From positions 1-21,684 of the IMG/VR virus record IMGVR_UViG_3300034118_001140: a DNA stretch of 21,684 nt, one strand, 5' to 3'. The stretch comes from a virus. Of this stretch, positions 5,431 through 9,029 are shown one piece after another. The translations under genes were made by a program, and so were the position numbers. Below the pieces are notes generated by a model. The model made no database searches and was not told the origin of the DNA. It saw nothing but the letters and a program-made list of their open reading frames with translations. Every line of letters starts with the position of its first letter. Position 1 is the stretch's first letter.

Positions 5431-5609
5431 GTATTTTCCGAAAATTTCCGCTTGCGCGTCTGACCTTTGACGCAAAGCCCTGATCAATAGTTCTTCAACT
5501 GGCCCTCTGAAATGGGGACAACCCGACGAAGGCACGCATCTCAAGCGCGGCCCGATCCCGGACAACCGAAGCGGCGGAGCAATCCACCTCTCAAACCCAT
5601 TTCACCATC
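5431..5609 (+). promoter_or_regulatory. Non-coding leader of the capsid gene with the 33-bp repeat, copy 2
   Basis: This 179-base gap starts at the scaffold stop. It holds a small AT-rich dyad, TTTTC (5434-5438) with GAAAA (5440-5444), then the 33-bp repeat (5448-5480) with TTGACG at 5467-5472 and an imperfect dyad with arms GCTTGCGCGTC and GACGCAAAGC. The remaining 129 bases form a leader for the capsid gene, with no gene and no clear Shine-Dalgarno motif before 5610. The same AT-dyad-plus-repeat arrangement occurs at 1954-2009. A promoter driving high capsid expression is the simplest reading, but no consensus -10 box can be shown. Confidence 0.5.
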
Positions 5610-6527
5610 ATGGCACTTTCCGTTGCTCACGGTATCCCCGAAGAATTCCGTCGCGAATTCACCAACAACCTCGAACACGAGGTCCAGCAGCTCCTGTCCA
5701 AGTTCTCCAGCCGCATCAAGGTCGAGGGCTTCGAGGGCAAGGAGAACATCTACAACTCGCTCGAACCGCGTTCGTTCAAGACGCGCACCGGGCGACTCCA
5801 GCAGTCCGCTCCGACCGAGGCCGAACTGCACGCCCGCAAGCTCGTCAAGGTTCCGTTCTACGACCAGGCGATCTTCGACAAGTGGGACGCCGAGTTCCTC
5901 GGCAAGCTCGCGCTTCCCGACTCCGAGACCATCCAGGCCATGAAGGCCGCCTACGCCCGCCTCATCGACACCGAGGTGTGCAAGGCCGCCGATGCCACGG
6001 TCTACGGGGGTGAAGAGCCCTACGTCACCGCCATCGACCTGCCTGCGGACCAGAAGGTCAACGTGCAACTCGGATCCTCGCCAGCCGCCAACGTCGGCCT
6101 CACGCCGGACAAGCTGGTCAAGGCGATGCAGATCTTCAAGGAGAACGACATCTACCCTGAGGAGGAGGAGCTGATTCTGGCCATCAACCCGAAGGCGGAG
6201 CAGGATCTCTACAGCTACATCAAAGCCTCGACCAACGATGTGTGGGCCAACATGATCTCGCGGTGGGCGGAATCCGGCGGAACGACCAAGCTCTTCGGAT
6301 TCACGGTCGTTTGCACCAACCGCATCGTGAACACCACCGGGAACATCGACCAGTGCTTCGCCTACTCGGCCAAGCGCGGGATCTACATGGCCCCCGAGAA
6401 GCTCGAAATCCACATGGATGTCCTGCCGACCCAGCAGCACGCCCTCCAGATCTCGGCCTACGCGACCCTCGGGTTCATGCGCCGGTTCGAGAAGGGTGTC
6501 GTCATGATCCCCTGTGACCGCGACTGA
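5610..6527 (+). CDS. Major capsid protein
   Basis: 305 residues. It should form the icosahedral shell. The N-terminal part (about 1-60) carries HGIPEEFRREFTNNLEHEVQ and a segment with LEPRSFKTRTGRLQQ, and the C-terminal part has LEIHMDVLPTQQHALQIS then a short strand-rich end (GFMRRFEKGVVMIPCD). These features and the position after the scaffold fit capsid proteins of the BPP-1/epsilon15-like podoviruses (HK97-type fold), which are of similar length. There is no N-terminal protease or prohead extension, so proteolytic maturation is not indicated. The start lacks a recognisable ribosome binding site, unusual for so abundant a protein; initiation may depend on the leader at 5481-5609. Confidence 0.88.
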   Translation: MALSVAHGIPEEFRREFTNNLEHEVQQLLSKFSSRIKVEGFEGKENIYNSLEPRSFKTRTGRLQQSAPTEAELHARKLVKVPFYDQAIFDKWDAEFLGKLALPDSETIQAMKAAYARLIDTEVCKAADATVYGGEEPYVTAIDLPADQKVNVQLGSSPAANVGLTPDKLVKAMQIFKENDIYPEEEELILAINPKAEQDLYSYIKASTNDVWANMISRWAESGGTTKLFGFTVVCTNRIVNTTGNIDQCFAYSAKRGIYMAPEKLEIHMDVLPTQQHALQISAYATLGFMRRFEKGVVMIPCDRD

Positions 6528-6558: not shown

Positions 6559-7023
6559 ATGGCCGACAAAAACACTGACTACTACCTCGACGCCCTGGAG
6601 GAGAACATTCGCCGGGATGCTGCGCCGAACATGGCTCCGCTTTCGAAGAAGCTTCGGTATGCGGAATTCGACATCACGCTCCAAACCGATTACATCGCCC
6701 AGAACGACAACTACGTCCTCGGGAAACTCCCGTGCGATGCGTTCATCATCCCCACTCTGTCGTTTCTCGTCGGGGTGTCGGGATCGGTGCAGGGCGTGTT
6801 CACCGTCGAGAAGGTCACCGCGTCTGGAGCGTCTCCGACCGCCATCGGGGCGTCCGTCACGATTGCGACCGATGGGACTCCCGTTGCTCTCGGCGCGGGA
6901 ACTGGTCTCATCTCGACCTCGAACTACCTCCAGCTCACCATCAACACCGCGACGGCACTTGCCAACGGTGATGTGGTGAAGTTGCTCGTTGCCTACGTTC
7001 CGACCAACGACGTGGTCAACTGA
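6559..7023 (+). CDS. Candidate capsid cement/decoration protein
   Basis: 154 residues. The N-terminus (1-35) is polar with the motif APNMAPLSKKLRYAEFD; the rest alternates short beta strands rich in Val, Thr, Ser, Ala and Gly (for example FLVGVSGSVQGVFTVEKV and LQLTINTATALANGDVV), as expected of a jellyroll or similar beta-sandwich. In BPP-1 a roughly 140-residue jellyroll cement protein is encoded next to the capsid gene and locks the capsid lattice. The same size, position and beta-rich character suggest that role here, but I see no diagnostic motif, so this is inference. It is the last gene before the terminator at 7034. Confidence 0.6.
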   Translation: MADKNTDYYLDALEENIRRDAAPNMAPLSKKLRYAEFDITLQTDYIAQNDNYVLGKLPCDAFIIPTLSFLVGVSGSVQGVFTVEKVTASGASPTAIGASVTIATDGTPVALGAGTGLISTSNYLQLTINTATALANGDVVKLLVAYVPTNDVVN

Positions 7024-7033
7024 CCCACCTCAC

Positions 7034-7076
7034 GCCCCAGGCCGGAACGACCACCGGCCTGGGGCTTTCTTTTCTC
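7034..7076 (+). terminator. Rho-independent terminator after the capsid genes
   Basis: A perfect 12-bp stem, GCCCCAGGCCGG (7034-7045) with CCGGCCTGGGGC (7054-7065), closes an 8-base loop and is followed by a T-rich tract (7066-7076). It begins 10 bases after the stop of the candidate cement gene. It should separate abundant capsid transcripts from the tail genes, which would then depend on read-through or another promoter. No promoter is evident between it and the tRNA gene that starts 4 bases later. Confidence 0.9.
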
Positions 7077-7079
7077 AAT

Positions 7080-7152
7080 CGCGGGATCGTCTAGCCTGGC
7101 AGGATACCTGGCTCATAACCAGGTGGCGCGGGTTCAAATCCTGCTCCCGCAA
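7080..7152 (+). tRNA. tRNA with CAT anticodon, initiator-Met-like
   Basis: The 73 bases fold into a full cloverleaf. Acceptor arm CGCGGGA (7080-7086) pairs with TCCCGCA (7145-7151), leaving a C1.A72 mismatch and discriminator A73. The D arm is GTCT/GGAT with loop AGCCTGGCA. The anticodon stem CCTGG/CCAGG holds loop CTCATAA, anticodon CAT at 7114-7116. A 4-base variable loop precedes T arm GCGGG/CCTGC with loop TTCAAAT. CCA is not encoded. The C1.A72 mismatch, D loop and T loop resemble bacterial initiator tRNA-fMet; the anticodon stem, however, has T29-A41 rather than the full GGG/CCC run, and T11-A24 is elongator-like. Elongator Met or lysidine-modified Ile2 (also CAT) remain alternatives. 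It sits between a terminator and a tail gene. Confidence 0.88.
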
Positions 7153-7163
7153 TTCCTCCGGCA

Positions 7164-9029
7164 ATGACGAACACCGATCTCGCGAACATGGCGCTCTCCC
7201 GGCTCGGAGAGCCCAGAATCACGGACATTGCCGAGAACTCTCCCGCGGCGATCTCCTGCCGCGAGAACCTCGAACTGGTCCGCGACTCGCTTCTCAGAGC
7301 GCACCCGTGGAACTTCGCCATGGGCAGGGCCACGCTCACCGCCGGGGCCGCTCCTGCCTTCGGATGGGAATACTCCTACCCGCTTCCCGCTGACCTCCTG
7401 CGGGTTCTCACGTTCAACGGCGTGCAGGCGGCCATGTGCGCCGCCGACTTCACCATCGAGGCCGGGAAACTGCTCGCCCATGTCGAGGAGGCCAAGATCA
7501 CCTACGTCCGCCGGGTGACCGACCCGACCTTCTTCGACCCGCTCTTCGTCGAGGTGCTGGTCCTCCGCCTCGCCTCGGCCATTGCCCTGGATGTCACCTC
7601 CTCGACCGAGAAGCGGGACGCCATGGAGGTGCTTGCCGATCAGCGGATGAGGGGCGCGACGTTTGTCGATGCCGGGGAGCGCCGCGTCCAACTCGTTGAC
7701 GGGCTTGAGGGCGTGCGGATGCGGCACTACGGGTCCGTGGGGGAATGCCTCCAGAGCCCGATCTGGTCTGCCGGGACGCACGGGTGGTCGCCGGTTCTTG
7801 CTGCCGTACCCCACAGCAACGGCAAGGTGCTTCAGATCACCAACTGGATTGGCGGGAGCGGTGAAAAGCCTTCGACCGGCTACGTTGGCGCGAACGGGAT
7901 CGTTTCCAGCATCAATGACGCGACCGTCATTCCTGACGGATTGTCCGGGAGTGAGGGAGACGACGGATGGACTCCCGTTTTTGCTGTCGAGTCCGATGGC
8001 GAGCGTCGCGTTCTGAAGGTGGTCGATTGGACCGGCGGGCAGGGAACAAAGCCCGCCATCAACGTATGGGTGGGGGCGACCGGGTTCGTGACAAGCATCG
8101 CGTCCGCGGTCAACATTCGCGGCCCGCAGGGATTGTCGGGTCCGTCGGGCAATTCGATCACAGGCCAACCGGGACCGGCTGGACCGGCTGGACCGGCTGG
8201 GCCGGCTGGGCCGGCGGGAGCAGATGGTGACAGCGCCTACGAGGTGGCGTTGGCCAACGGGTTTGTCGGGACGGAAGAGCAGTGGCTCGACTCGTTGATC
8301 GGTCCGGTGGGTGATGCAGGTCCGGCGGGTGCAGACGGGTCCAGCGGATCCCCCGGTCCGCAATTCAATAGCCGTGGGGAATGGGCAATCAACCAGACCT
8401 ACAACCTCTACGATGCGGTCACGCACGAAGGGTCGAGCTACTGGGCTTTGAGCCAACTCAACAGCGTTAACAATACTCCTCCAAACGTGCCGCAGTCTTG
8501 GCAACTCATTGCGTCAAAAGGCGACACCGGACCGGCGGGAGCGACCGGTCCGGCGGGAGCGAAGGGCGACACGGGCGACACCGGACCCGCCGGTGAGACA
8601 GGTGCAACGGGAGCGACCGGTCCGGCGGGAGCAACCGGCCCCCAAGGCCCAGCCGGTGCCACCTTTTCCAACGGACAGCTCGGCATCGTCATCGACGGGG
8701 CGGGAAGCACGATTACCACGGGGGTAAAAGGCTATCTGCGAGTGCCCTACGCCTGCACGATCAACTCCGTCGAGATCGTCGCGAACGCATCCGGTTCGAT
8801 CGTCGTCGATGTCTGGCGAGACACGTACGCCAACTTCCCTCCGGTCGTCGGTGATGCCATCACCGGATCGGCGAAACCGACTCTATCAAGCGCACTAACC
8901 TCGCAGTCCTCGACACTGACCGGATGGACGACGAGCCTGTCGGCGGGTGATTATCTTGCGTTCAACGTCGATTCCGCCACCACCGTGAGCCGCGTCACCC
9001 TCACCCTCGTCGTCACCCGCACCTCATGA
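7164..9029 (+). CDS. Tail tubular A adaptor fused to a collagen-like tail fibre (copy A)
   Basis: 621 residues in a modular chain. Residues 1-175 are a T7 gp11-like adaptor domain ([39 protein letters not shown]), which in podoviruses joins portal to nozzle. Residues 207-320 hold two tandem fibre repeats of the type GWSP...VLQ...NW.GG.G.KP...GA.G. Gly-X-Y collagen tracts at 320-354 and 452-500 flank a segment with [19 protein letters not shown] and a [13 protein letters not shown]-type module. Residues 501-621 form a beta-rich C-terminal knob with [13 protein letters not shown] and [13 protein letters not shown], likely the host-contact tip. The start is 11 bases after the tRNA and lacks a Shine-Dalgarno motif. 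The covalent adaptor-fibre fusion is unusual because T7 encodes the two separately. A paralogue starts at 10386. Confidence 0.85.
8172..8216 (+). repeat. Five tandem 9-bp units in the collagen region of fibre A
   Basis: Three exact units GGACCGGCT are followed by GGGCCGGCT and GGGCCGGCG. Each unit encodes one Gly-Pro-Ala triplet. Unit length is a multiple of three, so copy-number change would alter fibre length without a frameshift. Confidence 0.85.

Follow-up and report, generated by a model that had tools for sequence, protein, structure and literature searches.

The window, that is, the whole 21,684-nt stretch of record IMGVR_UViG_3300034118_001140 that was analyzed, comes from a virus of bacteria and contains a complete CAT tRNA gene at positions 7080-7152 of the + strand. 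The late region is arranged in the order terminase, portal, protease-like/scaffold-region protein, capsid, small ORF, terminator, tRNA, and a tail-tubular-A/fibre fusion. The tRNA gene is intergenic, with the ORF at 6559-7023 on one side and the tail tubular gene at 7164 on the other. The features of this region are as follows.

5610-6527, + strand: major capsid protein gene (phrog_3437, E value of 1.3e-22), start without a Shine-Dalgarno (SD) motif
6559-7023, + strand: small ORF 3' of the capsid gene, SD-like AAAGGA, without a PHROG match
7034-7065, + strand: intrinsic terminator, 12-bp stem and 8-nt loop, then TTTCTTTTCT; directly upstream of the tRNA
7080-7152, + strand: CAT tRNA gene, positions 1-73, without CCA (ARAGORN, Rfam, tRNA numbering)
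7080-7086, + strand: 5' arm of the acceptor stem, CGCGGGA, with C1 opposite A72 (tRNA numbering)
7089-7105, + strand: D arm, GTCT..GGAT, with G10.U25, U11-A24, C12-G23, and U13.G22; Glu/Gln type, not initiator type
7107-7123, + strand: anticodon arm, CCTGG-CTCATAA-CCAGG, with U29-A41, G30-C40, and G31-C39
7124-7127, + strand: 4-nt variable loop, TGGC; 5 nt (AGGTC) in the initiators compared
7145-7152, + strand: 3' arm of the acceptor stem, TCCCGCA, and discriminator A73 (tRNA numbering)
7164-9029, + strand: N-terminal domain resembling tail tubular protein A, in fusion with fibre-like domains (phrog_394, E value of 5.7e-46); ATG 11 nt past the tRNA, no SD

ARAGORN, which the original prediction had proposed as a check, returned tRNA-Met(CAT) at 7079-7153, and the Rfam tRNA match covered exactly 7080-7152 (score of 55.2 bits, with a gathering threshold of 29; E value of 1.3e-9). 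The gene reads CGCGGGA-TC-GTCT-AGCCTGGCA-GGAT-A-CCTGG-CTCATAA-CCAGG-TGGC-GCGGG-TTCAAAT-CCTGC-TCCCGCA-A. In tRNA numbering, 1.72 is C.A, followed by G-C, C-G, and G-C at 2-71, 3-70, and 4-69; 11-24 and 29-41 are both T-A, and 30-40 and 31-39 are both G-C. The tRNA also has U13.G22, a 4-nt variable loop, and A73, and CCA is not encoded. The claims made earlier from the letters of the window, namely a complete CAT cloverleaf with C1.A72, T11-A24, and T29-A41 that lies inside the structural operon, were thus borne out, the position being between the capsid-side ORF and the tail tubular gene. The minimum-energy fold computed for the unmodified tRNA was not the cloverleaf. This was the sole tRNA found in the record, and the same was true of all six relatives that were searched whole (seven records together).

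Bacterial initiator tRNA-fMet shares with the window tRNA C1.A72, G2-C71, C3-G70, G4-C69, A73, CAU, A37, G30-C40, and G31-C39, and the acceptor of a Sphingobium initiator (1-7/66-73) is identical to it. The window tRNA differs from tRNA-fMet in having U11-A24 rather than A11-U24, and in U13.G22, the 4-nt variable loop, and U29-A41. Bacterial tRNA-Glu and tRNA-Gln, in turn, share its U11-A24, C12-G23, U13.G22, and 4-nt variable loop, but not its CAT anticodon, initiator acceptor, or unpaired 1.72. The Glu-type core features (U11-A24, U13.G22, and the short variable loop) are common to tRNA-Gln, and the tRNA-Glu anticodon, UUC/CUC, is replaced by CAT. Among the tRNAs compared, the core of the window tRNA scored best with Euzebya tRNA-Glu, while its full-length BLAST matches in Actinomycetota were tRNA-Gln and its 3' half was about 87% identical to actinobacterial initiators. 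In one relative (L190), positions 7-65 matched tRNA-Glu at every Pseudomonadota locus checked, and the core (positions 8-64) was about 80% identical to bacterial tRNA-Glu (best matches, 78 to 81%). Because the matches were divided among tRNA-Glu, tRNA-Gln, and initiators, we call the core Glu/Gln-type and claim no single donor. A purely tRNA-Glu origin is only one candidate for the window tRNA, given the initiator-like 3' half and the full-length matches to tRNA-Gln; judged from these similarities, the gene may be a mosaic.

Relatives were collected by searching viral contigs with the capsid and the tail (capsid identity of 64 to 100%), and their genomes reach about 38 kb, compared with 21,684 bases for the window record. 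Matches of capsid, portal, and terminase among isolated phages were remote, and terminase matches in 299 Pseudomonadota genomes reached only 34 to 36%. No formylase, deformylase, or integrase was found among ten early proteins of the relative G001. A CAT tRNA occupied the equivalent spot in nearly all related contigs covering it. Two contigs with 64 to 65% capsid identity (L233 and L234) had the gene order and terminator of the window without the tRNA, so that their lineage evidently can do without the gene; L233 (4901-5600) and L234 offer a natural empty site for comparison.

Nine distinct members were aligned by tRNA numbering. Invariant were G2-C71, C3-G70, G4-C69, G6-C67, A72, A73, T33-C34-A35-T36-A37, and G30-C40. 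Seven members had C at position 1, and L188 and L216 (the latter from a separate MAG contig) had A; since A72 did not change, the mismatch was kept though its base differed, and every distinct relative had an unpaired 1.72, either C.A or A.A. The A1.A72 form lies at 4295-4365 of L188 and 266-336 of L216, and the tRNA-Met of phage pf16 (L212) has it likewise. L216 (JAIYCT010000013.1), a phage-like contig that belongs to this clade, was binned with a Microbacteriaceae MAG from a pond, which may hint at the host or may reflect misbinning. Two members with capsid identities of 92% (L186) and 88% (L190) matched the window completely over the acceptor and A73 (100%) but at only 58% over the core, and for L194 (capsid identity of 69%) the figures were 80% and 63%. 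The acceptor was thus kept while the core diverged, indicating that the tRNA body turns over quickly and the initiator-type ends stay. A paired change from G27-C43 to C27-G43 between L186 and L189 preserved that stem. In the outgroup forms L194 and L232 the body is that of an ordinary initiator, with A11-U24 and an AGGTC variable loop, and every other member carries U11-A24 and C12-G23 together with a variable loop of 4 nt. L194 and L232 were thus the only members with R11:Y24 as a D-stem pair, the window having U11-A24. The three G-C pairs at 29-41, 30-40, and 31-39 were complete only in L190 to L192, whereas the window has two of them and U29-A41. Many cellular Pseudomonadota initiators with A29-U41 likewise depart from the three-G-C rule. 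Some relatives carry U38 and G31.U39, unlike initiators.

Viral contigs were then surveyed with a pattern in which CGCGGG..CTCATAA..CCCGCAA was fixed, the window type of the clade being set aside. At least 102 distinct well-paired tRNAs were recovered (sequences counted regardless of kinship), of which at least 61 had R11:Y24 and at least 41 a pyrimidine at position 11. With a near-identical pattern, 189 of the 299 Pseudomonadota genomes had a purine at position 11, and the C.A form with a pyrimidine there was found in none of the 299. A second viral pattern left positions 1 and 72 free and required Y11, the GCGGG/CCCGC acceptor, and CAT; among the matches listed, 60 of 73 distinct viral Y11 CAT tRNAs were mismatched at 1-72 (26 C.A, 13 U.U, 8 A.A, and others), and the looser pattern had no match in 100 Pseudomonadota genomes. 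Since the viral counts cover the matches listed and ignore kinship, the contigs were accepted as viral collectively, the acceptor in the pattern preselects initiator-like ends, and the cellular control is one phylum, this viral/cellular contrast at 1-72 is a strong lead and not a measured rate. CAT tRNAs that combine a D stem of elongator type with one of several 1-72 mismatches (C.A, U.U, A.A, and U.C) appeared to be widespread among viral contigs (for example, L394, L406, L432, and L438), and several of their bodies resembled other elongators by eye, such as the Gly-like L058. The combination of a Glu-like D arm, CAT, and GCGGG/CCCGC was present in 4 contigs when about 85,000 genomes were searched: the phage-like L216, one with a tRNA from Armatimonadetes that has G1.U72, and two not called as tRNAs. 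Within the limits of this search, we rejected the idea that the gene is nothing more than the initiator of the host. The Armatimonadetes gene (L214, 5500-5577 of a MAG), near Val and Glu tRNA genes, is a cellular CAT tRNA on a body similar to the window type.

Among initiator features, unpaired 1-72 is a primary and A11:U24 only a secondary determinant of formylation, and a chimera of initiator acceptor and elongator anticodon arm was fully formylated (PMC4611024). For charging by MetRS, CAU alone suffices in tRNAVal (PMC9976931). The three G-C pairs of the initiator anticodon stem have been called universal (PMC4611024), and a U29A/C30G/A31U triple mutant lacking them was charged and formylated yet inactive in initiation (PMC10486304). 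We consider it moderately probable that the window gene makes an initiator-like tRNA, its Glu/Gln elongator-type body having been exchanged or rebuilt at this locus with the initiator determinants retained. Arguing against this are Y11:R24, which differs from the D-stem pair of initiators, the presence of two rather than three G-C pairs, U38 and G31.U39 in some relatives, the absence of the gene from L233 and L234, and the computed fold, which was not the cloverleaf. The initiator-like assignment of the original prediction nevertheless gained support from the formylation-type acceptor, CAU, and G30-C40, all kept in relatives despite the replaced core; the Glu/Gln type of that core in most clade members lay beyond its view.

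Since no sigma-70-like promoter was found between the terminator and the tRNA, the transcript probably arises by read-through of the terminator that follows the capsid genes, and on the best reading the tRNA would be made late, together with the structural genes. Host enzymes would trim it and add CCA, host MetRS would recognize CAU and charge it, and the Met-tRNA formyltransferase of the host would formylate it, the last step being proposed from the unpaired 1.72 and the initiator pairs at 2-71, 3-70, and 4-69. The resulting fMet-tRNA would enter the P site during late structural-gene expression. Beyond the structure, synteny, determinant conservation, and core type observed here, we infer with fair confidence that the tRNA is probably methionylated and formylated, and with less that it is used in the P site. 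A plausible benefit would be a supply of initiator when that of the host is limiting or hit by initiator-targeting nucleases; alternatively, it could boost SD-less late mRNAs.

Other functions would explain parts of these data. An elongator tRNA-Met or generic phage CAT tRNA that serves internal AUG codons, with C1.A72 the result of drift, would fit the U11-A24 D stem, the elongator-like core, the incomplete three-G-C motif, and the U38 of some relatives. However, under drift 1-72 and the acceptor would be expected to revert or to diversify, and both were kept while the core changed. The paired 1-72 expected of an elongator tRNA-Met was not seen in the window clade, viral Y11 CAT tRNAs with the same acceptor were mostly mismatched among the matches listed (60/73, as above), and formylation, which is tied to unpaired 1-72, blocks EF-Tu binding (PMC4611024). 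This explanation appears improbable. We think it more doubtful still that the gene acts as RNA punctuation, with RNase P and 3' processing cleaving the read-through RNA where the capsid cistron gives way to the tail cistron and leaving a defined 5' end 11 nt before the tail ATG. The tRNA does lie exactly between the terminator and the tail tubular ATG in the members seen, and the downstream tail gene has no SD, but processing needs none of CAU, A73, G2-C71/C3-G70/G4-C69, or the 1.72 mismatch, all of which are conserved, and L233 and L234 manage without a tRNA.

Phage CAT tRNAs can be tRNA-Ile2, in which case lysidine would be introduced by host TilS and AUA decoded, and the classes cannot be told apart by anticodon. 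In E. coli, TilS has a preference for C4-G69/C5-G68, whereas the window acceptor has G4-C69 and G5-C68, and all relatives have an initiator acceptor with unpaired 1.72. The kept acceptor, CAU, G30-C40, and mismatch leave this assignment disfavored, and we give it the lowest probability of all. Hardly more probable is an anti-defense role, in which the tRNA would be a nuclease-resistant substitute or decoy for a host initiator attacked by VapC-like or other tRNA-targeting systems. Initiator tRNA is a target of VapC toxins, which cut its anticodon stem-loop (PMC7180214), changes in the anticodon loop have been suggested to let phage tRNAs escape tRNA nucleases (PMC10264068), and base 38 or pairs 29-41 and 31-39 are altered in several relatives. 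The window loop, on the other hand, is an ordinary CTCATAA, and Shigella phages generally avoid encoding tRNA-fMet (PMC10264068). Such a role could also be combined with initiator function and need not replace it.

The initiator marks kept on a changing body at this locus suggest that a start tRNA of their own is carried by some phages. If the initiator reading is right, a phage whose sole tRNA is of this kind would speak against codon compensation in elongation and point to initiation as the supplied step. A wider proposal, which we put forward tentatively and regard as rather unlikely, is that phages of many groups carry an initiator tRNA class of their own, a formylation acceptor joined to varied elongator-type bodies that differ from host initiators, so that late SD-poor mRNAs stay translated when the host initiator is limiting or attacked; the window would be a single-tRNA, Glu/Gln-type example. 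If the initiator reading of the window tRNA holds, natural phage tRNAs would reveal which initiator features are really needed, with the acceptor mismatch and G30-C40 kept and the D-stem pair, 29-41, base 38, and variable loop free. The viral survey makes the question of phage-owned initiators directly testable. Isolated phages already provide examples of CAT tRNAs that show initiator features, annotated just as tRNA-Met. Those of phiCbK, S-PM2, Myrna, and pf16 share such features with the window tRNA, and pf16 has the A1.A72 of L188 and L216, but they have R11:Y24 bodies and belong to phages over 150 kb, compared with about 38 kb for the window clade; in S-PM2 and pf16, further tRNA genes adjoin the CAT tRNA. 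The literature searched, of which coverage was partial, yielded no account of initiator-like phage tRNAs built on elongator bodies. In mitochondria and eukaryotes, tRNA remolding or anticodon shift joins a body of one identity to the anticodon of another (PMC4783518, PMC3923123); the window case differs in that its acceptor determinants are also initiator matching and in that it is found in a phage.

With regard to start sites, the absence of SD motifs noted in the original prediction, capsid gene included, held for the window, where the ORF at 6559 (AAAGGA) was the only late gene with an SD-like motif. Capsid starts were compared in the window, G001, G002, and G003, and all four lacked an SD. 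Several early genes of the relatives carry good SDs, indicating that the host does use them, and alteration of start selection by the tRNA is only suggestive on these sequences. The early gene at 7651 of G002 has a strong SD. An A/C-rich leader, aaacccatttca, precedes the SD-less capsid gene (5590-5610 of the window) and is conserved in the window, G001, and G002.
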